A stretch of DNA of 64,000 nt from Streptomyces sp. NBC_01723. GTDB lineage: Bacteria; Actinomycetota; Actinomycetes; Streptomycetales; Streptomycetaceae. A model generated the notes under the pieces. It worked only from the letters and a program-made list of their open reading frames with translations, was not told where the DNA came from and searched no databases. The stretch lies in assembly GCF_036246005.1 (NCBI RefSeq), contig NZ_CP109171.1, positions 1,600,001 through 1,664,000 on the forward strand, given 5' to 3'. This document shows, in pieces, positions 17,808 through 47,233 of the stretch. Made by a program: the position numbers and the translations under genes. Within the stretch, counting starts at the first letter, position 1; the number at the start of each line of letters is the position of its first letter.

Positions 17808-17842
17808 GGCACCGATCACGTTCCGCCCGCCCACTGGACGGC

Positions 17843-17860
17843 ATACCGACCGGTCGGCAT
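17843..17860. promoter_or_regulatory. TetR-type operator upstream of APH/ACAD operon
   Basis: ATACCGACCGGTCGGCAT is an 18-bp near-perfect palindrome with a perfect 12-bp centre (CCGACCGGTCGG), 40 bp before the phosphotransferase start. A related sequence lies upstream of the SDR/ligase operon (23316-23331), and the TetR gene lies between them. Confidence 0.7.
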
Positions 17861-17899
17861 CATGAGATGCGTACTGTTCACCTGCCGCAGGGAGCGACG

Positions 17900-18925
17900 A
17901 TGACCCCCGACCACCCGCCCGGACTCGATCTCGACCGGTTGCGCGAGCTGCTCGACCGCGAGCGGCCCGGCCTGGTGACCGGCCCGCTGTCCGGCCGGCT
18001 GATCGAGGGCGGACGCTCGAACCTCACCTACGCCGTCACGGACGGCACCGCCCGCTGGGTCGTCAGACGCCCCCCGCTCGGCCACGTCCTCGCCACCGCG
18101 CACGACATGAAGCGCGAGCACCGCGTCATCAGCGCCCTGCACCCCACGAACGTACCGGTCCCCCGCCCCCTGCTCCTCTGCGAGGACGAGGACGTCGTCG
18201 GGGCGCCCTTCTACGTCATGGAGTTCGTCGAGGGCACCCCGTACCGCACCGCCGACCAGCTCGCCCCCCTCGGCCCCGAGCGCACCCGCGCCGCCGTGCT
18301 GAACCTCGTCGACACCCTCGTCGAGCTGCACGCGGTGGACCCCGCCGAGGTCGGCCTCGGGGACTTCGGCCGCCCGGAGGGGTTCCTGGACCGCCAGCTC
18401 CGCCGCTGGGCCAAGCAGCTCGACGCCTCGCGCAACCGCGACCTGACCGGCATCGACGAACTGCACGCCACGCTCGGACGGGAACTCCCCCGCTCCCCCG
18501 CCCCGACGGTCGTCCACGGCGACTACCGCCTGGACAACGTCCTGATCGGCGGCGAGAACGACGAGATCAACGCGATCCTCGACTGGGAGATGTCGACCCT
18601 CGGCGACCCGCTCACCGACCTCGGCCTGCTGGTGATGTACAGCAGCCCGCTCGGCATGCCGGACTCCCCCGTCTCCACCACGGCCCAGGCCCCCGGCCAC
18701 CCCGCCCCCGCCGAGCTGGTCCAGCGGTACGCCGACCGCTCGGGCCGCGACGTGGGCGCCGTCGCCTGGTACACGGCGTTCGCGTGGTTCAAGCTCGCCG
18801 TGATCCTGGAGGGCATCCACTACCGCTACACGCTGGGCCGCACGGTCGGCCCCGGCTTCGACCGCATCGGCGACCTCGTCCCCGTATTCATCGAGCACGG
18901 CCTGACCACCCTTCAGAAGGGCTGA
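17900..18925 (+). CDS. APH-family phosphotransferase, ACAD10/11- and LvaA-like
   Basis: A 341-residue aminoglycoside-phosphotransferase-fold kinase. The glycine-rich N-lobe (EGGRSNLTYAV), catalytic loop HGDYRLDN (H206, D208, N213) and metal site LDWE (D228) are all present. The family is fused to an acyl-CoA dehydrogenase in animal ACAD10/11 and forms LvaA in the levulinate pathway, where it phosphorylates the 4-hydroxyl of 4-hydroxyacyl-CoA. Here an ACAD gene follows 6 bp later. ATG 17900 has GGAG 6 nt before; the long frame upstream is a shadow. The substrate is inferred. Confidence 0.85.
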   Translation: MTPDHPPGLDLDRLRELLDRERPGLVTGPLSGRLIEGGRSNLTYAVTDGTARWVVRRPPLGHVLATAHDMKREHRVISALHPTNVPVPRPLLLCEDEDVVGAPFYVMEFVEGTPYRTADQLAPLGPERTRAAVLNLVDTLVELHAVDPAEVGLGDFGRPEGFLDRQLRRWAKQLDASRNRDLTGIDELHATLGRELPRSPAPTVVHGDYRLDNVLIGGENDEINAILDWEMSTLGDPLTDLGLLVMYSSPLGMPDSPVSTTAQAPGHPAPAELVQRYADRSGRDVGAVAWYTAFAWFKLAVILEGIHYRYTLGRTVGPGFDRIGDLVPVFIEHGLTTLQKG

Positions 18926-18931
18926 CCCGCC

Positions 18932-20146
18932 ATGGACTTCGCGTACGACGCACGCACCGAGGAACTCCGCGCCAGGCTGCTCGCCTTCTTGGACGAGCAC
19001 GTCCACCCCGCCGAGCAGGTCGCCCACGAGCAGCGCGCCCGCCTCGCTTCCCCCTGGGACACCCCGCAGGTCGTGGAGGACCTGAAGGCCGAGGCCCGCC
19101 GCCAGGGGCTGTGGAACCTCTTCCTCCCCGACGCCGAGTACGGCGCGGGCCTGACCAACCTCCAGTACGCCCCGCTCGCCGAGATCACCGGCCGCAGCCC
19201 GCAGCTGGCGCCCACGGCGACGAACTGCGCGGCCCCGGACACCGGGAACATGGAGGTGCTGGCCCAGTTCGCCGACGAGGCGCAGAAGAAGCAGTGGCTC
19301 CAGCCCCTGCTGGCCGGCGAGATCCGTTCCGCGTTCGCGATGACCGAGCCGGACGTGGCCTCCTCGGACGCCACGAACATCACCACGCACATCGAGCGGG
19401 ACGGCGACGAGTACGTCATCACGGGCCGCAAGTGGTACATCTCCGGGGCGATGAACCCGGACTGCCAGATCTTCATCGTGATGGGCAAGACCGACCCGGA
19501 CGGCGCGGACATCCGCCGCCAGCAGTCCATGGTCCTGGTCCCGCGCGACACGCCCGGGGTGACCGTCGACCGCGCCATGCAGGTCTTCGGCTACGAGGAC
19601 CACTACCACGGCGGCCACGCCGAGGTGACCTTCGACCACGCGCGCGTGCCGGTGTCGAACCTGATCGGTGAGGAGGGCGGCGGCTTCGCCATCGCCCAGG
19701 CCCGCCTCGGTCCCGGCCGCATCCACCACTGCATGCGGCTCATCGGGATGGCCGAGCGCGCGATCGAGCTGATGTGCCGCCGCGCGGTGTCCCGCGAGGC
19801 GTTCGGCAAGGCGCTGGCCCAGCAGGGCGTGGTCCACAACTGGATCGCCGACGCCCGGGTCACCGTCGAGCAGTTGCGGCTGCTGGTGCTGAAGACCGCC
19901 TGGCTGATGGACACCGTCGGCAACCGGGGCGCGCACACCGAGATCCAGGCCATCAAGATCGCCACGCCGCGCGCGGTGGTCGACATCATCGACCGGGCCA
20001 TCCAGTTGCACGGCGCGGGCGGCGTGAGCCAGGACTTCCCGCTGGCGGAGCTGTACGCGGGCGCCAGGACGCTGATGATCGCCGACGGGCCGGACGAGGT
20101 GCACCAGCGCTCGCTGGCCCGCCGGGAGATCAAGAAGTACCTCTGA
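18932..20146 (+). CDS. Acyl-CoA dehydrogenase, ACAD11/LvaC-like
   Basis: A 404-residue FAD flavoprotein. FAD/substrate motifs AFAMTEPDVASSDATNI and GRKWYISGA, and the C-terminal IQLHGAGGVSQDFPLAELYAGAR are typical of the ACAD10/11 branch. Together with the kinase it probably converts a 4-hydroxyacyl-CoA to an enoyl- or 3-hydroxyacyl-CoA ready for beta-oxidation (known for LvaC). ATG has GACCCGCC before it; the gene follows the kinase directly. Confidence 0.88.
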   Translation: MDFAYDARTEELRARLLAFLDEHVHPAEQVAHEQRARLASPWDTPQVVEDLKAEARRQGLWNLFLPDAEYGAGLTNLQYAPLAEITGRSPQLAPTATNCAAPDTGNMEVLAQFADEAQKKQWLQPLLAGEIRSAFAMTEPDVASSDATNITTHIERDGDEYVITGRKWYISGAMNPDCQIFIVMGKTDPDGADIRRQQSMVLVPRDTPGVTVDRAMQVFGYEDHYHGGHAEVTFDHARVPVSNLIGEEGGGFAIAQARLGPGRIHHCMRLIGMAERAIELMCRRAVSREAFGKALAQQGVVHNWIADARVTVEQLRLLVLKTAWLMDTVGNRGAHTEIQAIKIATPRAVVDIIDRAIQLHGAGGVSQDFPLAELYAGARTLMIADGPDEVHQRSLARREIKKYL

Positions 20147-20162
20147 ACGAGGCCGACCGGGC

Positions 20163-20198
20163 GAGGTGACGGCCCCCGGAACCCGGGGCCGTCACCTC
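20163..20198. terminator. Bidirectional hairpin terminator
   Basis: A 14-bp perfect stem (GAGGTGACGGCCCC with GGGGCCGTCACCTC) with an 8-nt loop lies between the convergent ACAD and TetR genes and includes the TetR stop codon. Confidence 0.8.
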
Positions 20199-20799
20199 AC
20201 GGGCGCAGTGCCCGCAGCAGCAGGTCCGCGAGGTGGTCGGCGACCTCCTGCGGGCCCAGCGGGCCGTCGGGGCGGTACCAGGTGGACAGGTGGTGGACGG
20301 AACCGAAGTGGTAGTCCACCACCAGGTCCGCCGGGGTCTCCTTGGTGAAGACCCCGGCCCGCTGGCCCTCCTCGATGAGCGCGCGGAAGCGCTCGTGGTA
20401 GCGGCGCCGCTCGGCCCGCACCTGCTTGTTCTTCTCGGGGCTCAGCTGGTGCATGGAGCGGAAGAAGATCGACGCGTCGTCGAGGTTGTCGATGGTGGTG
20501 ACGACGACGTCGGCCGCCGCTTCCCGCACCCGCTTCTCGACCGGCTCGTCGGATTCCGCGAAGGCGTCGAGGCGCTCCTGCTGGAGGCGCAGCACGCGCG
20601 CGTAGACCTCGTGCAGGAGGTCGTCCTTGGAACCGAAGTAGTGGTACAGCGCTCCCTTGGTGACGCCCGCCGCCTCCACGATCTCCTGTACCGAGGTGCG
20701 GTCGTAGCCCTGCTCCGCGAAGAGCCGGGTGGCGGCGGCCAGGAGCCGCTGCGGCACCGGAGTGCCGTCCCCGTCCGTGGTCCTGGGCACTGCCGTCAC
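20197..20799 (-). CDS. TetR/AcrR regulator of the acyl-CoA cluster
   Basis: A 200-residue repressor. The N-terminal HTH (ATRLFAEQGYDRTSVQEIVEAAGVTKGALYHYFGSKDDLL) is standard TetR; the C-terminal half binds an unknown ligand, likely an acyl-CoA. It lies between the kinase/ACAD operon and the ligase/SDR operon, whose promoters both carry TACCGAC-type palindromes. It is downstream of the ligase on the same strand (26 bp) and may be read through from the SDR promoter, giving autoregulation. Confidence 0.85.
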   Translation of the reverse strand: MTAVPRTTDGDGTPVPQRLLAAATRLFAEQGYDRTSVQEIVEAAGVTKGALYHYFGSKDDLLHEVYARVLRLQQERLDAFAESDEPVEKRVREAAADVVVTTIDNLDDASIFFRSMHQLSPEKNKQVRAERRRYHERFRALIEEGQRAGVFTKETPADLVVDYHFGSVHHLSTWYRPDGPLGPQEVADHLADLLLRALRP

Positions 20800-20825
20800 C
20801 TGCCTTTCCGTTCAACTGTCCGTCT

Positions 20826-22496
20826 TCACTGTCCGTCGTCGTGCTTACGGGAACGCAGTTCCCGACGGAGGATCTTCCCACTCGCCGTCTTCGGCAGGTC
20901 GGGCAGGATCTCCACCTGACGCGGGTATTTGTAGGCGGCCAGTCTCTCCTCGCAATAGGCGGCGAGTGCGTCCGGGGCCGTGTCGGCACCCGGACGGAGG
21001 CTGATGTACGCCTTGACCGTCTCTCCCCGGTACCCGTCGGGCACGCCGACGACGGCGGCCTCGCGCACCGCCGGATGGGTGTAGAGCACGTCCTCGACCT
21101 CACGCGGCCAGACCTTGAACCCGGAGGCGTTGATCATGTCCTTCTTGCGGTCGACGACGTAGAGCCACCCCTGAGCGTCCATGAAGCCGATGTCACCGGT
21201 GCGCAGCTCGCCGCCGGGGAAGGTCTCGGCGGTGGCGTCCGGGCGCCGCCAGTAGCCGGGGACGACCTGCGGCCCGCCGACGACGATCTCGCCCTGCTCC
21301 CCGAGGGGCACCTCGGCGCCCAGCTCGTCGACGATGCGGACGACGGTCTCGGGGCCCGGCACGCCGACCGCGAGGGTCCCGGAGGCGGGGTCCACCGGGG
21401 CCTCCAGGTGCGGCGGGACCGAGGCGCACGGCGCGGTGCACTCGGTGAGTCCGTAGCCGTTGCGGATGTACGGCCCGAAGCCCGCGCGGAACTTCTCCAC
21501 CAGGGCCGGCGGCAGCGGGGCACCGCCGGAGGAGATGTTGACGAAGGAGGCGAAGTGCTCGCGGGTGACGGACGGCTGGGCGGCCAGCGCCATGAAGGCG
21601 GTGGACGGGCCGACCGTGTAGTGCGGGCGGTGCTCGGCGAACGCGTCCAGCACGACGCCCGGCTCGAAGCGGTACGCCAGCACCAGCGTGCCCGCGCTGT
21701 TCAGACAGGCGCCGAACTCGCAGACCATGCCGGTGATGTGGAACAGCGGCGCCAGCGCGAAGTAGACCGGCGCGTCGGGCAGGCCGAGCCCGGTGCGCTG
21801 GCGCTCCGCGTTGTACATGATGTTGCGGTGGGTGTTGGTGGCGCCCTTGGGGGTGCCGCTGGTGCCCGAGGTGTAGCTGATGAGCGCGGTGCCGTCCGGC
21901 GCCGGGTCGCGTCCCTCGGGCGCCGGGTGGCCGGCGCGGGCCGCGGCCGTGAGGTCGTCGGCGTCGTCGGTGTCCGGCAGCCGCTCGAAGGTCAGCACGC
22001 GCGCGTCCCCGCGGGTCTGGAAGTCCAGCTCGCACCCCGTGAGCACGATCCGCACCGGCGAGCCGGACGCCGTGTCGCGCAGGTACGACTCCCAGGCCCG
22101 GTCGGAGCAGACCAGCGCGGACACCTCGGCGTCCCGCAGGACGTGGCCGACCTCCCCCGACTTGTACATCGGGTTGACCGGCACCACGATGGCGCCCGCC
22201 TTCCAGGCGCCCAGGACGGCGAGCACGAAGTGCGGGGAGTTCTGCAGCACGACCGCGGCCCGGTCGCCGCGTTCCAGACCGCGCGCGGCGAGGTGCCCGG
22301 CGACGGAGTCGCTCAGCCGGTCCACCTCGCGGTAGGTGAGGCGGCCGTCGAAGTAGGCGAGGAAGACGCGGTCGGGAGTCTCGGCGGCGACCCTGCGCAG
22401 GGCGTGCACCAGGGAGGCGTCGGGGTCGAGCGGTGCCTTCTGGGCATCGGTGAGCAGGCCGAGCCAGGGCTTGGCCGCGTAGGGGGAGCCGGTCAT
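20826..22496 (-). CDS. Acyl-CoA ligase (class I adenylate-forming)
   Basis: A 556-residue AMP-forming acyl-CoA synthetase. The ATP loop YTSGTSGTPKGA, the NGYGLTECT motif, the GDIGFMDAQGWLYVVDRKKDMI segment and the catalytic Lys in KTASGKILRREL are visible. It activates a carboxylic acid with CoA. The start ATG 22496 overlaps the SDR stop (ATGA), so the two are coupled. It corresponds to LvaE in the Lva analogy. Chain length and structure of the acid are unknown. Confidence 0.9.
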   Translation of the reverse strand: MTGSPYAAKPWLGLLTDAQKAPLDPDASLVHALRRVAAETPDRVFLAYFDGRLTYREVDRLSDSVAGHLAARGLERGDRAAVVLQNSPHFVLAVLGAWKAGAIVVPVNPMYKSGEVGHVLRDAEVSALVCSDRAWESYLRDTASGSPVRIVLTGCELDFQTRGDARVLTFERLPDTDDADDLTAAARAGHPAPEGRDPAPDGTALISYTSGTSGTPKGATNTHRNIMYNAERQRTGLGLPDAPVYFALAPLFHITGMVCEFGACLNSAGTLVLAYRFEPGVVLDAFAEHRPHYTVGPSTAFMALAAQPSVTREHFASFVNISSGGAPLPPALVEKFRAGFGPYIRNGYGLTECTAPCASVPPHLEAPVDPASGTLAVGVPGPETVVRIVDELGAEVPLGEQGEIVVGGPQVVPGYWRRPDATAETFPGGELRTGDIGFMDAQGWLYVVDRKKDMINASGFKVWPREVEDVLYTHPAVREAAVVGVPDGYRGETVKAYISLRPGADTAPDALAAYCEERLAAYKYPRQVEILPDLPKTASGKILRRELRSRKHDDGQ

Positions 22497-23260
22497 CGGG
22501 CGTTCCCCTCCTCCCACTGCCGCTGGAGCCGGTTCATGCCGTGCAGCCAGCGGTCGGGTTCGGCGGCGCGGGCCTGGTAGTACTCGGCGACCTCCGGGTG
22601 CGGCAGGATCAGGAAGCGGTCCTCCTCGATGCCCTTGAAGAGGGCGTCGGCCACGTCCTGCGGCTCGATCGCGGTGGGCTGGAGCACCAGTTCGCCCGCG
22701 CTGCCGCTCGCGGTGAGCATGTCGGTGCGCACGCCCTGCGGGCAGATGGCGTGGACCTTGATCCCGCGGTGGCGGTACGTCAGGGACAGCCACTCGGCGA
22801 AGGCGTAGGCGCCGTGCTTGGTGACGCTGTAGGGGGCGGCGCCGATCATGGTGAGCAGTCCGGCGGCCGACACGGTGGAGACGAAACGGCCACTGCCGCG
22901 CTCCAGCCAGTCCGGGATCAGTTCGTGGGCCGCGCGGACGTGGGCCATCACGTTGACGTCCCAGGCGAGCGCCCAGACGGCCTCCTCGGCCGCCTCGGTC
23001 CCTCCGGAGCCGACGCCCGCGTTGGCGCAGTACACGTCGACCGTGCCACCCAGCGCCGCACGGGCCTCGCCGACGATCGCGGAGGCGTCACCGGGCACCG
23101 CGATCCCGCCGATCTCGTCGGCCACGGCCCTGGCCCGGTCGGCGTCAAGGTCGTTGACGACGACGCGGGCGCCCTCGGCGGCGAAGCGGCGGGCCAGCGC
23201 GGCCCCGATGCCGCCTCCAGCCCCGGTGACGACGACTCCGGCATCCTGCACGGCTTCCAC
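22493..23260 (-). CDS. Short-chain dehydrogenase/reductase
   Basis: A 255-residue NAD(P)-dependent SDR: TGAGGGIG (12-19), catalytic Ser131, Tyr144 and Lys148 (YSVTKHG). GTG 23260 is preceded by AAGGAGA at good spacing, so the 10 upstream residues are not included. First gene of the SDR-ligase(-TetR) operon. It could reduce a keto-acyl (for example a 4-keto to 4-hydroxy acid, as suggested for LvaD) or oxidise a hydroxy product. Confidence 0.87.
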   Translation of the reverse strand: MEAVQDAGVVVTGAGGGIGAALARRFAAEGARVVVNDLDADRARAVADEIGGIAVPGDASAIVGEARAALGGTVDVYCANAGVGSGGTEAAEEAVWALAWDVNVMAHVRAAHELIPDWLERGSGRFVSTVSAAGLLTMIGAAPYSVTKHGAYAFAEWLSLTYRHRGIKVHAICPQGVRTDMLTASGSAGELVLQPTAIEPQDVADALFKGIEEDRFLILPHPEVAEYYQARAAEPDRWLHGMNRLQRQWEEGNAR

Positions 23261-23315
23261 GATCGGTCTCCTTCGACGCGGCTCGGGCACTGCTGACTCC
23301 CCGTTGCAGCGTCAG

Positions 23316-23331
23316 ACTAACCAGTCGGTAT
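23316..23331. promoter_or_regulatory. TetR-type operator upstream of SDR/ligase operon
   Basis: On the minus strand it reads ATACCGACTGGTTAGT, sharing ATACCGAC.GGT with the site at 17843. It is 56 bp before the SDR start. One half-site is strong and the other weak, suggesting lower affinity. Confidence 0.55.
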
Positions 23332-30172: not shown

Positions 30173-30634
30173 ATGGCAGAGCCGAGGATCTTCACATCCG
30201 TCGACGAGGTGAAGGCGGCGGTGGGCGAGCAGCTGGGACACACCGACTGGCTGGAGGTCGACCAGAAGCGGATCGACCTGTTCGCCGAGGCCACCGGCGA
30301 CCACCAGTGGATCCACGTCGACCCGGAGAAGGCCGCCGCGGGCCCCTTCGGCACCACCATCGCGCACGGCTATCTGACCCTGTCGCTGCTCCCGCTCTTC
30401 GGTCCGCAGCTGATCAGGGTCGAGGGCGTGAAGATGGGCGTCAACTACGGCACCAACAAGGTCCGCTTCCCCTCCCCCGTCCCGGTCGGCTCGCGCCTGC
30501 GTGCCACGGCGACGATCACCGGCGTCGAGGACGTGACGGGCGGGATCCAGGTGTCCGTCGCCTTCACGGTGGAACGCGAGGGCGGCGACAAGCCGGTCTG
30601 CGTCGCCGAGTCCGTCTCCCGCTACTGCGTCTGA
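30173..30634 (+). CDS. MaoC-family hot-dog dehydratase
   Basis: A 153-residue hot-dog protein. The (R)-specific enoyl-CoA hydratase signature D-x4-H (ATGDHQWIHVDPEKAAAGPFGTTIAHGYLTLS, here split) with catalytic Asp and His is intact. It hydrates enoyl-CoA or a related thioester. The gene's last 13 bp overlap the convergent TetR gene. Strong palindrome upstream. Its substrate is unknown, though a TetR of the fatty-acid type alongside suggests acyl-CoA metabolism. Confidence 0.88.
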   Translation: MAEPRIFTSVDEVKAAVGEQLGHTDWLEVDQKRIDLFAEATGDHQWIHVDPEKAAAGPFGTTIAHGYLTLSLLPLFGPQLIRVEGVKMGVNYGTNKVRFPSPVPVGSRLRATATITGVEDVTGGIQVSVAFTVEREGGDKPVCVAESVSRYCV

Positions 30635-31278
30635 GCGGACCGGTCGGAGCCGGACGCGCCGGCCCCGACCATCCGCAGTACGAGGTCGGCGTAGAGCGCG
30701 CCGACCTCGTCGGGCGTCCGGGCGCCGTTCACGTTGAACCAGCGGGCCACGTCGATGCAGAGCGACAGCACGGCGAGCGTGGTGCCCTTGACGTCCGGCA
30801 CGTCGAACTCGCCCGTCGCCACGCCGTCGTCGATGATGCCGCGCACCGCGGCGTCGCACTGCCGGCGGAGCGTGAGGATCTCCTCCCGGGCCTCGGGGCC
30901 GAGCGCGTCCAGCTCGTACTGCACGACCCGCGCGGTCGTGCGCCGGCCGGCGTGCCAGCGGACGAAGGAGCTCACGGCGTCGGCGAGCCGTTCGGTCGCA
31001 CTGCCGTCACCCTGGGCCGCGGAGCGCAGGATGGCCACCGCCCGGGTGTGACCGATGCGGCTGATGCGGTGCAGCAGCTCTTCCTTGGTCTTGTAGTGGA
31101 TGTAGAGCGCGGCCGGGCTCATGCCGGCCCGCCCGGCGATGTCGCGGGTCGTGGTCGCGTGGTACCCGCGTTCGGCGAACGCCTCCACGGCGGCGACCAG
31201 GAGCCGCCGGGCCGCGTCAGGCGTGACCTCTTCCCACGGCTCGATGTCGCCGCCCGTCGTCTCGGCCGCCGTACTCAT
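30622..31278 (-). CDS. TetR regulator of the MaoC gene
   Basis: A 218-residue TetR protein: HTH in AVEAFAERGYHATTTRDIAGRAGMSPAALYIHYKTKEELL. Its own promoter and that of maoC share a CTnAGC..GCGCTTAG-type palindrome, so it probably controls both. The ligand-binding half resembles regulators of fatty-acid genes. ATG start at 31278; it overlaps the convergent MaoC gene by 13 bp. Confidence 0.85.
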   Translation of the reverse strand: MSTAAETTGGDIEPWEEVTPDAARRLLVAAVEAFAERGYHATTTRDIAGRAGMSPAALYIHYKTKEELLHRISRIGHTRAVAILRSAAQGDGSATERLADAVSSFVRWHAGRRTTARVVQYELDALGPEAREEILTLRRQCDAAVRGIIDDGVATGEFDVPDVKGTTLAVLSLCIDVARWFNVNGARTPDEVGALYADLVLRMVGAGASGSDRSAQTQ

Positions 31279-31730: not shown

Positions 31731-32882
31731 TCAGAAGGCCGAAACCCCGGTCAGCGCCCGCCCGATGACCAGTTTCTGGATCTGGCTGGTGCCCTCGTAC
31801 AGCGTCATCACGCGGGCGTCGCGCAGCAGTTTGCCGGCCGGGTACTCGTCGATGTAGCCGTAGCCGCCGAAGACCTGGAGGGCGTTGTTGGCGGCGCGCA
31901 CGGCCGCCTCCGAGGCGAACAGCTTGGCCTTGGAGGACTCGACGGTGAAGGGCTGCCCGCGGTCGATCAGGTCGGCGACCCGCCAGGTCAGCAGCCGGGC
32001 GGCGTCCACGTCGAGGGCGATGTCGCTGATCAGCTCCTGCACCAGCTGGTGGTGGGCGATGGTCTTCCCGAACTGCTCGCGCTCGCCGGCGTACCGCACG
32101 GCCGCGTCCAGCGCGGCCTGGGCGATGCCGACGCAGCCGGCCGCGACCGACATCCGCCCCTTGGCGAGCGCGGACATGGCGACCGAGAAGCCCCTGCCCT
32201 CGGGTGCGAGCATCGCGGAGGCCGGGACCCGGACGTCCTCCAGGACCAGTTCGGCGGTGGCCTGGCCGCGCAGCCCGAGCTTGCCGTGGATGGTGCGCCG
32301 GGTCAGACCGGGGGTGTCGGTGGGCACCAGGAACGCGGAGACACCCTTGTGGCCCGGGGCGTCGGTGGAGCGGGCGAAGAGCAGGACGACGTCGGCCCAG
32401 GTGCCGTTGGTGATGAACATCTTCGTGCCGTTGATGACGTAGTCGTCGCCGTCGCGGACCGCCCGGGTGGCGAGGTTCCCCGCGTCCGAGCCGGTGCCGG
32501 GCTCGGTGAGGCCGAAGCAGCCGACGTACGCCCCGGAGGTGAGCCCCGGCAGCCAGCGCCGCTTCTGCTCCTCGTCGCCCCAGGCGGCGATGGTCTTGGC
32601 GACCAGGCCGAGGGAGACGGACACGATGCCGCGCACGGAGCTGTCGCCGCGCCCCAGCTCCTCCGTCACCAGGCAGTACGCGAGATGGTCGCCGCCGGAG
32701 CCGCCGCACTCCTCGTCGACGGTGAGCCCGAGGAAGCCGACCTCGCCGAGCTTCTTCACGATGGACCGGTCCACCTCCTCGGCGCGGTCCCAGGCGACGA
32801 CGTGCGGGGCGATCTCGCGCTCCACGAAGTCCCGCGCGAGCCGCCGCACGGCGCTCTGCTCCTCGCTGAGCTCCAGATTCAT
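31731..32882 (-). CDS. Acyl-CoA dehydrogenase
   Basis: A 383-residue FAD enzyme of the short/branched-chain group. FAD and substrate motifs CFGLTEPGTGSDAGNL and INGTKMFITNG, and the catalytic Glu in TLYEGTSQIQKLVIGRAL are present. It introduces a 2,3-double bond into an acyl-CoA in beta-oxidation or amino-acid breakdown. It is divergent from a TetR gene with a long palindrome in between. Confidence 0.9.
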   Translation of the reverse strand: MNLELSEEQSAVRRLARDFVEREIAPHVVAWDRAEEVDRSIVKKLGEVGFLGLTVDEECGGSGGDHLAYCLVTEELGRGDSSVRGIVSVSLGLVAKTIAAWGDEEQKRRWLPGLTSGAYVGCFGLTEPGTGSDAGNLATRAVRDGDDYVINGTKMFITNGTWADVVLLFARSTDAPGHKGVSAFLVPTDTPGLTRRTIHGKLGLRGQATAELVLEDVRVPASAMLAPEGRGFSVAMSALAKGRMSVAAGCVGIAQAALDAAVRYAGEREQFGKTIAHHQLVQELISDIALDVDAARLLTWRVADLIDRGQPFTVESSKAKLFASEAAVRAANNALQVFGGYGYIDEYPAGKLLRDARVMTLYEGTSQIQKLVIGRALTGVSAF

Positions 32883-34443: not shown

Positions 34444-35412
34444 ATGATGAGCACCGCTCGCACGTCCCCCTCCGCCCCCTCCCGCCGCTCGCAGCTGCTC
34501 GCGGCCGGCGCGGCCACCGTGACCGTCGTCCTGTGGGCCTCCGCCTTCGTTTCCATCCGCAGCGCCGGCGAGGCCTACTCGCCGGGTGCGCTGGCCCTCG
34601 GGCGGCTGCTGTCCGGCGCCGTGGTCCTCGCCCTGATCTGCCTGGTGCGGCGGGAAGGGCTGCCGCCCCGCCCGGCCTGGCGGGGGATCGCGATATCGGG
34701 GCTGCTGTGGTTCGGCTTCTACATGGTGGTCCTGAACTGGGGCGAGCAGCAGGTGGACGCCGGTACGGCCGCGCTGGTGGTGAACGTCGGCCCGATCCTC
34801 ATCGCGCTGCTCGGCGCCCGCCTGCTCGGGGACGCGCTGCCGCCGCGGCTGCTGGCGGGGATGGCGGTGTCGTTCGCCGGTGCGGTGACCGTGGGCCTGT
34901 CGATGTCCGGCGAGGGCGGCTCCTCGCTGTTCGGGGTGGTGCTGTGTCTGCTGGCCGCGGTGGCGTACGCGGGCGGGGTGGTCGCGCAGAAGCCCGCGCT
35001 GGGGCACGCCAGCGCGCTTCAGGTGACGACGTTCGGCTGCCTGGTCGGTGCGGTGCTCTGCCTGCCGTTCACGGGGCAGCTGGTGCACGAGGCGGCCGAC
35101 GCGCCCGTCTCGGCGACGCTGAACATGGTGTACCTGGGCGTGTTCCCGACCGCGCTGGCGTTCACGACCTGGGCGTACGCGCTGGCCCGGACGACCGCCG
35201 GGCGCATGGGCGCCACGACGTACGCCGTGCCCGCCCTGGTGGTCCTGATGTCGTGGCTGGCGCTCGGTGAGGTGCCGGGGCTGCTCACCCTGGCGGGCGG
35301 CGCGCTCTGCCTGGCGGGTGTGGCGGTGTCGCGGTCCCGCAAGCGGGCTCGGGCCGCGACCTTGGACGAGCCGGTGGGGTCGCGGCCCGAGGGCGCTTCG
35401 CGGTCAGCGTGA
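34444..35412 (+). CDS. EamA/DMT-family transporter
   Basis: A 322-residue permease with ten helices in two EamA repeats (ASAFVSIRSAGEAYSPGALALGRLL and AVAYAGGVVAQKPAL). Probably an exporter of small metabolites. ATG 34444 or the ATG directly after (34447) are possible; GGAG at 34439-34442 suits 34447. The 3' end overlaps the convergent MHS gene by 9 bp. Confidence 0.85.
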   Translation: MMSTARTSPSAPSRRSQLLAAGAATVTVVLWASAFVSIRSAGEAYSPGALALGRLLSGAVVLALICLVRREGLPPRPAWRGIAISGLLWFGFYMVVLNWGEQQVDAGTAALVVNVGPILIALLGARLLGDALPPRLLAGMAVSFAGAVTVGLSMSGEGGSSLFGVVLCLLAAVAYAGGVVAQKPALGHASALQVTTFGCLVGAVLCLPFTGQLVHEAADAPVSATLNMVYLGVFPTALAFTTWAYALARTTAGRMGATTYAVPALVVLMSWLALGEVPGLLTLAGGALCLAGVAVSRSRKRARAATLDEPVGSRPEGASRSA

Positions 35413-36729
35413 ACGCGCCCTGTCGGCCAGCACCTTGATGGACACCAGGGCGATCACCGAGAGGGCGATGATGTAGCCGGACACGGCCATCGAGGTACCC
35501 GTCGCCTCCAGGAGCAGCACCATGACGAAGGGCGCGAGCCCGCCCCCGCCGACGGCGGCGATCTGGTAGCCGAGGGAGGCGCCGGTGTAGCGCATCTCCG
35601 GCGTGAACAGTTCGGCGAAGAGGGCGGCCTGGGGGCCGTACATGATGCTGAGGAAGCAGCTGGCGACGAAGGTGCCGACCGCCAGCCACACCAGCGAGCC
35701 GGTGTCGATGAGCAGGAACAGCGGGACGGCCCACACGGCGATGCCGACCGCGCCGACCGTGTAGACCCTGATGCGGCCGAACTTGTCGGACAGGGCGGCG
35801 GCGCCCGGGATCAGCACCAGCTGGGTGAGGCTGACGCAGAGCGAGACGGCGAGCACCGCGCCGTGGTCCATGTCCAGTTCCCGCGTCGTGTAGTCGAGGA
35901 CGCCGGTGATGAGGATGTAGAACGTCGCGGTGTTCACGGCGAAGGAGCCGCCGGCCAGCAGGACCGTGCCGAGGTGATCCCGCATGATGGTGCGCAGCGG
36001 GGAGGTCTGCTCGCCCTGCTCCTTCTCGGCCAGCGCCCGCTCGGCCTCCCGGAACTCCGGGGTCTCCTCGACGCGGGTGTGGATGTACCAGGCGAGCCCC
36101 AGGACGAGCAGGCCGACCACGAACGGCACCCGCCAGCCCCAGGACTCGAAGGCCGACTCGGAGGTGAACGCCCCGGCCAGCAGGAAGACGGTGTTGGCCG
36201 TGACCACGCCGATGGGGACGCCGAGCTGGACGACGCTGCCGTAGATGCCGCGCTTGCCCTCGGGGGCGTACTCGGTGGCCAGCAGCATCGCACCGCCCCA
36301 CTGGGCGCCGACGGCCACGCCCTGAACGATGCGGAGCAGGACGAGCAGGACGGGGGCGGCGACGCCGATGGTCTCGTACGTGGGCAGCAGGCCGATGCCG
36401 GTGGTGGCCACGCCCATCAGGGTGAGCGCGATGACCAGCATCGGCTTGCGGCCCTTCTTGTCGCCGAGCTGGCCGGCGACGATGCCGCCGATCGGGCGGG
36501 CGAGGAAGCCGACCGCGAAGGTGGCGAAGGCGGCCAGAACCCCGGCGGTGGAGCTGCCGGCCGGGAAGTACAGGTCACCCAGGACGAGCGCGGCGGCGAT
36601 GCCGAAGACGAAGTAGTCGTACCACTCGACGGCCGACGCGAGGGCCGCGGCGGTGGCCACGCGGCGGCGGTTGGGGGCGGCGGCCCGGGCGGTGGCGGCC
36701 AGGGGCTGAGCGGAGGGGGTGGTGTCCAT
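35404..36729 (-). CDS. MFS transporter, metabolite:H+ symporter (MHS) family
   Basis: A 441-residue 12-helix carrier. MHS signatures are ASAVEWYDYFVFGIAAALV, RPIGGIVAGQLGDKKGRKP and YAPEGKRGIYGSVVQLGVP. Relatives import shikimate, proline/betaine, dicarboxylates or aromatic acids. The gene is downstream of the dehydrogenase genes on the same strand but separated by 273 bp with its own regulatory motifs. Substrate not predictable. Confidence 0.88.
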   Translation of the reverse strand: MDTTPSAQPLAATARAAAPNRRRVATAAALASAVEWYDYFVFGIAAALVLGDLYFPAGSSTAGVLAAFATFAVGFLARPIGGIVAGQLGDKKGRKPMLVIALTLMGVATTGIGLLPTYETIGVAAPVLLVLLRIVQGVAVGAQWGGAMLLATEYAPEGKRGIYGSVVQLGVPIGVVTANTVFLLAGAFTSESAFESWGWRVPFVVGLLVLGLAWYIHTRVEETPEFREAERALAEKEQGEQTSPLRTIMRDHLGTVLLAGGSFAVNTATFYILITGVLDYTTRELDMDHGAVLAVSLCVSLTQLVLIPGAAALSDKFGRIRVYTVGAVGIAVWAVPLFLLIDTGSLVWLAVGTFVASCFLSIMYGPQAALFAELFTPEMRYTGASLGYQIAAVGGGGLAPFVMVLLLEATGTSMAVSGYIIALSVIALVSIKVLADRARSR

Positions 36730-36796: not shown

Positions 36797-36863
36797 GGGC
36801 GGGGAGGGGGTGGGGAGGGGACGTTGGGGAAACGTTTCGGGGAACGTACTGACCGGACGGTAT
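36797..36863. promoter_or_regulatory. Promoter region of MHS gene: G-tract, LacI-like palindrome, TetR-like site
   Basis: The 273-bp gap upstream of the MHS gene holds a run of G-tracts on the plus strand (36797-36820), a perfect 10-bp palindrome GAAACGTTTC (36829-36838) with the central CG of LacI-type operators, and GTACTGACCGGACGGTAT (36846-36863), which matches 14 of 18 positions with the TetR operator at 17843. Confidence 0.5.
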
Positions 36864-46547: not shown

Positions 46548-46565
46548 ATACCGACCGGTAGGCAT
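46548..46565. promoter_or_regulatory. TetR-type operator between TetR and molybdopterin enzyme genes
   Basis: ATACCGACCGGTAGGCAT differs from the operator at 17843 at one position in 18. It is 39 bp before the oxidoreductase start and just downstream of the TetR gene at 46616. Confidence 0.65.
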
Positions 46566-46615: not shown

Positions 46616-47233
46616 TCAGTCCAGGACGCGCCCCAGATAGGCCCGGAGCAGCTCCCGCGCCTCCTCGATGATCTTCGCGTCCCCGTCCGGCGCGACCCGG
46701 AAGGCGAGTTGGACGAGGGTGTCGGCGGTCTCCACGGCGACGAGGAAGACGCGGCGCAGATCGTCGTCGGGGCTTCGGCCGAGGTAGCCGGAGAGCAGCT
46801 CGGTGAGCCGCTCGGCGACGCGGTGGTTGGGGACGGCGGCCCGGTCGCCGACCGGGATCTGGTTGCCGAAGTCGATCAGGGAGAAGCCGGGCGCGGTCCG
46901 CTTCATCGCCAGGTACTCGTCGAGCACGGCGTCCAGGGCGCAGCGCCAGCCGCCGTCGCCGGTCTCCGTGAGCCGTTCGGTCACGCGTTCCGCGTAGCGC
47001 TCCAGGTTGCGCTGGGCCAGCGCGTCGGCCATCTGCCGCTTGTTGCCGAAGAAGCGGTACACCGACCCGATGGGGACGTCGGCACGCAGCGCCACGGCCC
47101 GGGTGCTCAGGGCGTCGTAGCCCACCTCGTCGAGGAGGTCGGCGCAGGCGTCGAGGATCCTGGTCAGCCGTTCGGCGCTGCGCCGCTGCACGGGGGCGCG
47201 GCGGAGCGGGGTCGCGTGGGACACGGTCCTCAT
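46616..47233 (-). CDS. TetR regulator
   Basis: A 205-residue regulator with a non-canonical, Arg-rich start and HTH region ACADLLDEVGYDALSTRAVALRADVPIGSVYRFFGNKRQM. A palindrome of the ATACCGACCGGT type lies between it and the oxidoreductase gene downstream, the natural target. It starts 7 bp after the lipoprotein stop and may be in one operon with it. Confidence 0.83.
   Translation of the reverse strand: MRTVSHATPLRRAPVQRRSAERLTRILDACADLLDEVGYDALSTRAVALRADVPIGSVYRFFGNKRQMADALAQRNLERYAERVTERLTETGDGGWRCALDAVLDEYLAMKRTAPGFSLIDFGNQIPVGDRAAVPNHRVAERLTELLSGYLGRSPDDDLRRVFLVAVETADTLVQLAFRVAPDGDAKIIEEARELLRAYLGRVLD

Follow-up and report, generated by a model that had tools for sequence, protein, structure and literature searches.

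A genus-wide kinase/acyl-CoA dehydrogenase block in Streptomyces, a probable PfmR-type-controlled 4-hydroxyacyl-CoA degradation regulon

In a 64,000-nucleotide stretch of the 8.85 Mb genome of Streptomyces sp. NBC_01723 (contig NZ_CP109171.1, positions 1,600,001 to 1,664,000 of the forward strand; referred to here as the window, with positions counted from its first letter), five intact genes at 17900-23260 form two converging operons that, judged from their sequence, probably constitute a dedicated regulon for the degradation of 4-hydroxyacyl-coenzyme A (CoA) thioesters, a reading to which we give a probability of about 0.8. The rightward operon (17900-20146, + strand) comprises an APH-fold kinase of the LvaA/ACAD10-11 type (17900-18925, 341 aa; Pfam APH, 194 bits), followed after 6 bp by an acyl-CoA dehydrogenase (ACAD) of the LvaC/ACAD11 type (18932-20146, 404 aa). 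The leftward operon (23260-20197, - strand) runs from a short-chain dehydrogenase/reductase (SDR; 22493-23260, 255 aa; Pfam adh_short) through an AMP-dependent acyl-CoA ligase that overlaps it by 4 bp (20826-22496, 556 aa; Pfam AMP-binding, 291 bits) to a PfmR-like TetR-family regulator (20197-20799, 200 aa). Two palindromic candidate operators, operator 1 upstream of the kinase (TACCGACCGGTCGGCA, 17844-17859) and operator 2 upstream of the SDR (TACCGACTGGTTAGTC on the - strand, 23315-23330), coincide with the edges of the block at 17843 and 23331. The initial annotation of this DNA had grouped the same five genes as an Lva-like catabolic regulon, without mention of the operators; Pfam confirms every one of them, including a regulator of the TetR rather than the sigma54 type.

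Compared with the sequences of every solved structure, the ACAD reaches 463 and 461 bits against ACAD11 and 447 bits against each of 2wbi, the structure of the ACAD11 dehydrogenase domain, and 4hr3, deposited as a 'putative acyl-CoA dehydrogenase', after which scores fall to at most 140 bits, the most that ordinary ACADs reach. According to passages of PMC12440821, the 4-phosphate in mouse ACAD11 is contacted by R626, H634 and R637, R631 is conserved in the family, and D753 is the base. The window ACAD carries identical residues at R258, R263, H266, R269 and D385, which correspond to R626, R631, H634, R637 and D753, respectively (the ACAD11 chain numbering in the alignment is offset by one). 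Same-genus comparisons were made across 41 loci, i.e. the window locus and 40 further loci (kinase identity 71-93%) that were picked by hand from a list of 150 genomes, mostly genomes in few contigs, and both RLGPGRIHHCMR and DGP[DS]EVH are found in the ACAD of all 41, as are the features of the LvaC/ACAD10-11 branch, namely the catalytic Asp, the HCMR motif and the upstream Arg of the flavin adenine dinucleotide (FAD) pocket. Two ordinary ACADs, one in the window at 31731-32882 and the other Thermus TTHB022, have neither the HCMR motif nor the catalytic Asp. Placement of the window ACAD in the ACAD11 branch, as first annotated, holds strongly on these scores and residues.

The best solved relatives of the kinase are the bacterial APH protein 9o56 (241 bits), 3dxp (182 bits; deposited as a putative acyl-CoA dehydrogenase) and the ACAD11 kinase domain (173 bits), so that two bacterial structures with no stated function outscore ACAD11. 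Its HGDYRLDN sequence (HGDxxxxN) aligns with D220 and N225 of ACAD11, with the catalytic Asp and Asn retained (D208, N213; also D228), and HGDYRLDN-type and DWE motifs are present in the kinase of 41/41 loci, which bears out the earlier statement that the catalytic residues are intact. The protein stays far under the cut-offs of antibiotic-phosphotransferase models (best, 35 vs 205 bits), and is the only match of its kind in its own genome at E <= 1e-30. Membership in the APH family, the two motifs and nearness to ACAD11-type kinases all point to the LvaA/ACAD10-11 kinase type; R86 and R176, which contact CoA in the ACAD11 kinase, have no certain place in the alignment and were not used as evidence. 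Passages of PMC11342911 report that each part of ACAD10 can be replaced in vitro by bacterial relatives. We consider it well supported by these residues and motifs that the kinase/ACAD pair would act on 4-hydroxyacyl-CoA.

The two genes are also tightly associated across genomes. A search of 150 same-genus genomes detected the kinase in 143 at E <= 1e-40 and, more stringently, in 139 at E <= 1e-150, the closest named match being that of S. cathayae (84% identity). Kinase-ACAD order is retained in all 40 other same-genus genomes fetched, and the pair are neighbours, at most 55 bp apart, in 41/41 loci. A survey of 296 Actinomycetota genomes across 192 genera (12 genomes of the window's genus, 284 of other genera) found the ACAD in 120 and the kinase in 135, with both present in 115, the ACAD only in 5, the kinase only in 20 and neither in 156; because these genomes are related, the Fisher p of this co-occurrence is inflated and is not to be taken literally. 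Conservation of the block is far beyond chance. At 12 loci (L178, L181, L183, L185, L187-L194), an LvaC-type ACAD is found with no adjacent LvaA-type kinase, and all 12 genomes have a kinase match elsewhere. On plasmids, kinase and ACAD are side by side in Rhodococcus koreensis (L035) and apart in Nonomuraea. An S. cathayae plasmid (L034, NZ_CP121683.1) carries a copy of the block between IS3 elements, in which kinase, ACAD, SDR and two operator-like sites are retained, the TetR match is broken up over two frames, and the ligase is a remnant. Between the converging operons of other genomes, no common pathway gene was seen among 20 open reading frames, which were compared by their first residues only and without a family search. 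The window block itself is flanked by a DUF202 protein on one side and a NamZ-type muramidase on the other, with no evident link to it.

Upstream of the kinase, TACCGAC[CT][AG]GTCGGCA is found in 41/41 loci, starting 52-138 bp before the kinase start and varying only in its central YR, and upstream of the SDR, TACCGAC[CT][AG]GTTAGT[CA] is found 32-181 bp before the gene in 36/36 loci with an SDR in the stretch (36 of the 41 stretches). For comparison, the median kinase-upstream 16-mer is common to 1 of the 40 other loci and the median SDR-upstream 16-mer to 2 of 35, and 820 letter shuffles of the kinase-upstream sequence reached at best 12 of 16 positions. Operator 1 is the sole site in its own genome within one mismatch of TACCGACYRGTCGGTA. 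Twenty of the 40 other same-genus genomes were searched in full for exact matches, and the operator pair was present in 20/20, against one match overall for the reversed pattern used as control; 8 of the 20 have no exact site beyond the pair and the remaining 12 have a total of 20 extra places, which argues for a chiefly local regulon. One of the same-genus genomes (G101) has seven exact operator places, five of them outside the block, and may have a wider regulon. In each of the 36 loci where both operators were seen, they enclose the TetR gene, and the block has the look of a genuine regulon with two conserved candidate operators.

Operator 1 lies within the 17-bp spacer of a putative kinase-operon promoter (17835-17863, + strand), formed by TGGACG (17835-17840) and CATCAT (17858-17863); across loci, TGGAC just upstream of the operator is conserved in 40-41 of 41 per base, and CATnAT lies just downstream, with AT.AT in 41/41. 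On the other side, a putative -10 element, TAGTCT (23314-23319, - strand), sits inside the right half of operator 2, the half-site that deviates from symmetry, and is conserved in 35-36 of 36 loci per base; no clear -35 was seen at operator 2. A -10 hexamer in this position would explain why the departure from symmetry is identical in every locus. Such positions, between -35 and -10 for operator 1 and across -10 for operator 2, would be classic for a steric repressor.

Two other sites in the window are recorded here for their resemblance in type. Positions 36847-36862 (TACCGTCCGGTCAGTA) lie upstream of an MHS/MFS transporter gene (35404-36729, - strand), which itself follows genes for a Zn-type alcohol dehydrogenase and for an aldehyde dehydrogenase; the site is identical in five close orthologous loci (L103-L107), the only ones scanned, weaker homologues having been left out. 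Its half-site differs from that of the operators, and we do not claim it as a member of the regulon; it is perhaps an operator relative that serves another TetR. The second, TACCGACCGGTAGGCA at 46549-46564, lies between an oxidoreductase-like open reading frame and a TetR gene (46616-47233), and sites of this type number four in the window vs 0.59 expected, a count reached in 1 of 100 shuffles.

The best match of the TetR in the PDB is 3vpr (95 bits), whose printed sequence is that of the PfmR gene product (TTHB023) of Thermus thermophilus HB8 pTT27, and the best match of PfmR in the genome containing the window is, in turn, the block TetR. The published PfmR site, TACCGACCGNTNGGTN (passages of PMC7022988), matches operator 1 but for one base and operator 2 but for two. 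Two features of a PfmR-type regulon, TACCGAC-type palindromes at the promoters and a TetR closest to PfmR, are found at this locus. This likeness to PfmR, together with two putative PfmR-type operators that bracket the cluster, is new in this analysis. The pTT27 gene run consists of TetR, ACAD, serine hydrolase, SDR, MaoC, thioesterase, ligase, SDR, ACAD, phosphotransferase, DUF6285 and histidine phosphatase, of which the ninth is an HCMR/Asp-type ACAD and the tenth an APH kinase. In the pfmR mutant, this ACAD and kinase rise by log2 fold changes of 1.68 and 1.86 (adjusted p 0.020 and 0.021), and the genes between PfmR and the ACAD/kinase pair are up by log2 0.9-1.5, none of them under 0.05 (table of PMC7022988, with genes paired by operon order). 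The authors, in passages of the same paper, describe the regulon as one of fatty acid and phenylacetic acid metabolism; we infer that it concerns 4-hydroxy acids. A broader proposal, which we offer tentatively and rate at somewhat less than even odds, is that, in two or more bacterial phyla, PfmR-type TetRs would serve specifically to sense 4-hydroxyacyl-CoA (or its 4-phospho or 4-keto counterpart), and that the Thermus PfmR regulon would be a 4-hydroxy-acid regulon induced by a CoA ester of the pathway. Nonomuraea has an intermediate arrangement, with a TetR 64% identical and a site directly before it, an LvaC-type ACAD 73% identical with a site ~12 bp before it, and the kinase elsewhere. The gene that ends the Thermus run (L031, 5044-5697 of the pTT27 locus) encodes a histidine phosphatase, as does a gene of the levulinate cluster of Pseudomonas citronellolis (passages of PMC6692424). 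Its presence in both clusters suggests a common accessory step.

The absence of a visible LvaB partner, already remarked on at first annotation, was upheld. LvaB, which we take to be a member of the DUF6285 family, has no match by that family in the window's own genome or in any of 12 same-genus genomes (own included), in a search whose control was positive in 2 of 14 named genomes, Thermus composti and Caulobacter vibrioides. Among the Actinomycetota surveyed, DUF6285 occurs in 31 of 296 genomes, 26 of them with the kinase, and 109 of the 135 kinase genomes are without it. The Thermus DUF6285 protein, at 116 aa, agrees with the 12 kDa stated for LvaB in passages of PMC6692424, in which no lvaB was found for the P. 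citronellolis levulinate cluster.

In the route that we propose, the CoA thioester would be made by the block ligase or by another cellular ligase, and the SDR would interconvert 4-keto and 4-hydroxy (or later 3-hydroxy) acyl-CoA. The kinase would phosphorylate the 4-hydroxyl, and the ACAD would grip the phosphate via Arg258, His266 and Arg269, with Asp385 as the base, and eliminate it through a transient FAD redox cycle, yielding a 2-enoyl-CoA for ordinary beta-oxidation. The PfmR-like TetR would occupy the two operators at the -35/-10 regions of the kinase-ACAD and SDR-ligase-TetR promoters, from which a pathway acyl-CoA would release it. Among the open-licence PMC papers listed, no title, abstract or passage seen connected Streptomyces or PfmR with 4-hydroxy acid catabolism. 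SCO6785-SCO6792 of S. coelicolor, considered as a candidate orthologous block, was dropped: the cluster that passages of PMC7324645 and PMC5539140 describe is a fadAB one, and neither paper equates it with the block.

Several observations weigh against this reading. No biochemistry or expression data were found for any Streptomyces gene of the block. The system can do without the ligase, since only 27 of the 39 loci that hold the TetR have it at full length, 2 others having a partial gene and 10 none. Ligase and SDR both reach no specific family cut-off and match generic structures, which lends no support to naming them LvaE (levulinyl-CoA ligase) and LvaD (4-keto reductase), or to levulinate, a butyrolactone or any other named acid as the substrate. 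LvaB is needed in P. putida (passages of PMC6692424), while the block has no DUF6285 partner. The TetR is only 38% identical to PfmR, and the next PfmR match in the genome, at 78 bits, is just 17 bits lower. Outside the genus, a kinase is adjacent at just 5 of 17 fetched ACAD loci, such that the pair is often split, and of 17 Actinomycetota genomes (of 296) with the TetR at E <= 1e-30, 12 are of the window's genus, leaving just 5 of 284 in other genera; no operator was found at two kinase-ACAD operons with a 46-50% identical TetR ~10 kb off (L175, L176). In the Thermus pfmR mutant, the eight other listed operon genes, which lie below PfmR or above TTHB015, rise less (adjusted p 0.07-0.17; PMC7022988 table). 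No promoter was returned by a strict scan for the sigma-70 consensus, and the promoter elements therefore remain putative. Finally, at up to two mismatches the genome has 105 operator matches vs 89 and 86 for the reversed-pattern control, and at up to three mismatches to the symmetric pattern 91 vs 59; weak sites are thus indistinguishable from chance, and a wider genome regulon beyond the block was rejected.

Other explanations differ in how much of the above they share. One accepts that the pair acts on 4-hydroxyacyl-CoA, and takes it for a housekeeping clean-up, like ACAD11, of medium- or long-chain 4-hydroxy fatty acids derived from lipid peroxidation or lactones, with no levulinate growth pathway; its chances seem to us evenly balanced, as the kinase occurs in nearly all the same-genus genomes sampled, the ACAD is close to ACAD11, the block is without a transporter and 12 of 39 loci have no complete ligase, whereas the tight retention of a local repressor hints at a substrate that is met only now and then and induces the genes. 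Degradation of 4-hydroxy or 4-keto acids, as first annotated, stands in that breakdown of 4-hydroxyacyl-CoA is probable, but its extension to gamma-butyrolactone signals found no support. Opened lactones are 4-hydroxy acids, and Streptomyces produce gamma-butyrolactone signals; these butyrolactones are, however, branched and have a primary 4-hydroxyl, the block has no lactonase, and the TetR is under the cut-off of the ScbR model (73 vs 150 bits), all of which makes it very improbable that the module degrades such autoregulators or other gamma-lactone signals.

An ordinary beta-oxidation operon, in which the ACAD is a normal dehydrogenase and the APH protein is unrelated, is likewise disfavoured, to the point that we would be surprised to see it borne out: the Pfam domains are generic, as are ligase and SDR, and ACADs outside the genus often have no kinase beside them, but the HCMR motif and catalytic Asp, the gap between 463 and 140 bits, and a kinase in 115 of 120 ACAD genomes and next door at each of the 41 same-genus loci speak against it. 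It is also unlikely that a different TetR with similar specificity, and not the block TetR, binds the operators. The genome does encode PfmR-like TetRs in number (22 matches at E <= 1e-6), one at window 30622-31278, and in 2 of the 41 loci (L047, L071) the kinase operator stands in a 10 kb stretch that has no TetR, one of the two genomes (G088) having it ~5 kb the other way; against this, the TetR is encoded between the operators wherever both were seen, and TetRs 62-64% identical to it are likewise preceded by a site of this type (directly in L032, at ~150 bp in L177). The TetR at 30622-31278, the second-best PfmR relative in the genome (78 bits), lies next to a MaoC hydratase gene (30173-30634) and the ordinary ACAD mentioned above.

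If a 4-hydroxyacyl-CoA degradation regulon is indeed encoded here, 4-hydroxy-acid catabolism, known from Pseudomonas and mammals, would extend to most members of Streptomyces, in a form that would lack an LvaB-like gene and have another type of regulator; the Thermus PfmR regulon, for its part, would gain a concrete biochemical purpose. A repressor that answers to 4-hydroxyacyl-CoA would lend itself to use as a biosensor in the conversion of levulinate and gamma-lactones, and the DNA parts, two operators and one repressor, are well enough defined for immediate testing.

Among known systems, the Pseudomonas lva operon, as far as the available descriptions go, likewise combines a kinase, an HCMR/Asp-type ACAD, a CoA ligase and an SDR in one block. 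It differs from the Streptomyces block in its sigma54-type LvaR (P. putida-type operon), where the latter has a TetR, in an acetate-symporter-like transporter, and in LvaB, presumably of the DUF6285 family. Of the Lva-like regulon first proposed, the LvaA/LvaC chemistry is supported by the ACAD residues and kinase motifs, but with neither an LvaB partner nor LvaR the block falls outside the lva operon as it is defined for Pseudomonas. The levulinate cluster of P. citronellolis LA18T, which has LvaA-, LvaC- and LvaD-like genes and in which no lvaB was found (passages of PMC6692424), is comparable in this respect, and differs in its LvaR-like regulator, histidine phosphatase gene and transporter. 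Mammalian ACAD10/ACAD11 would share the same two activities by homology, with the five named ACAD residues and the kinase Asp and Asn retained; they are fused in mammals, whereas the Streptomyces activities reside in two separate proteins under bacterial transcriptional control. The PfmR regulon of T. thermophilus HB8 resembles the block in its TetR, its operator type and an operon with kinase, HCMR-type ACAD, ligase and SDR, but runs to 12 co-directional genes (10 in the published operon), with DUF6285, MaoC, thioesterase, a second ACAD and histidine phosphatase, and has been described as a phenylacetic and fatty acid regulon, not a 4-hydroxy acid one. Set beside these systems, the block is best described as a putative genus-wide, PfmR-type-controlled 4-hydroxyacyl-CoA module with the predicted mode of action of LvaA/LvaC and ACAD10/11.

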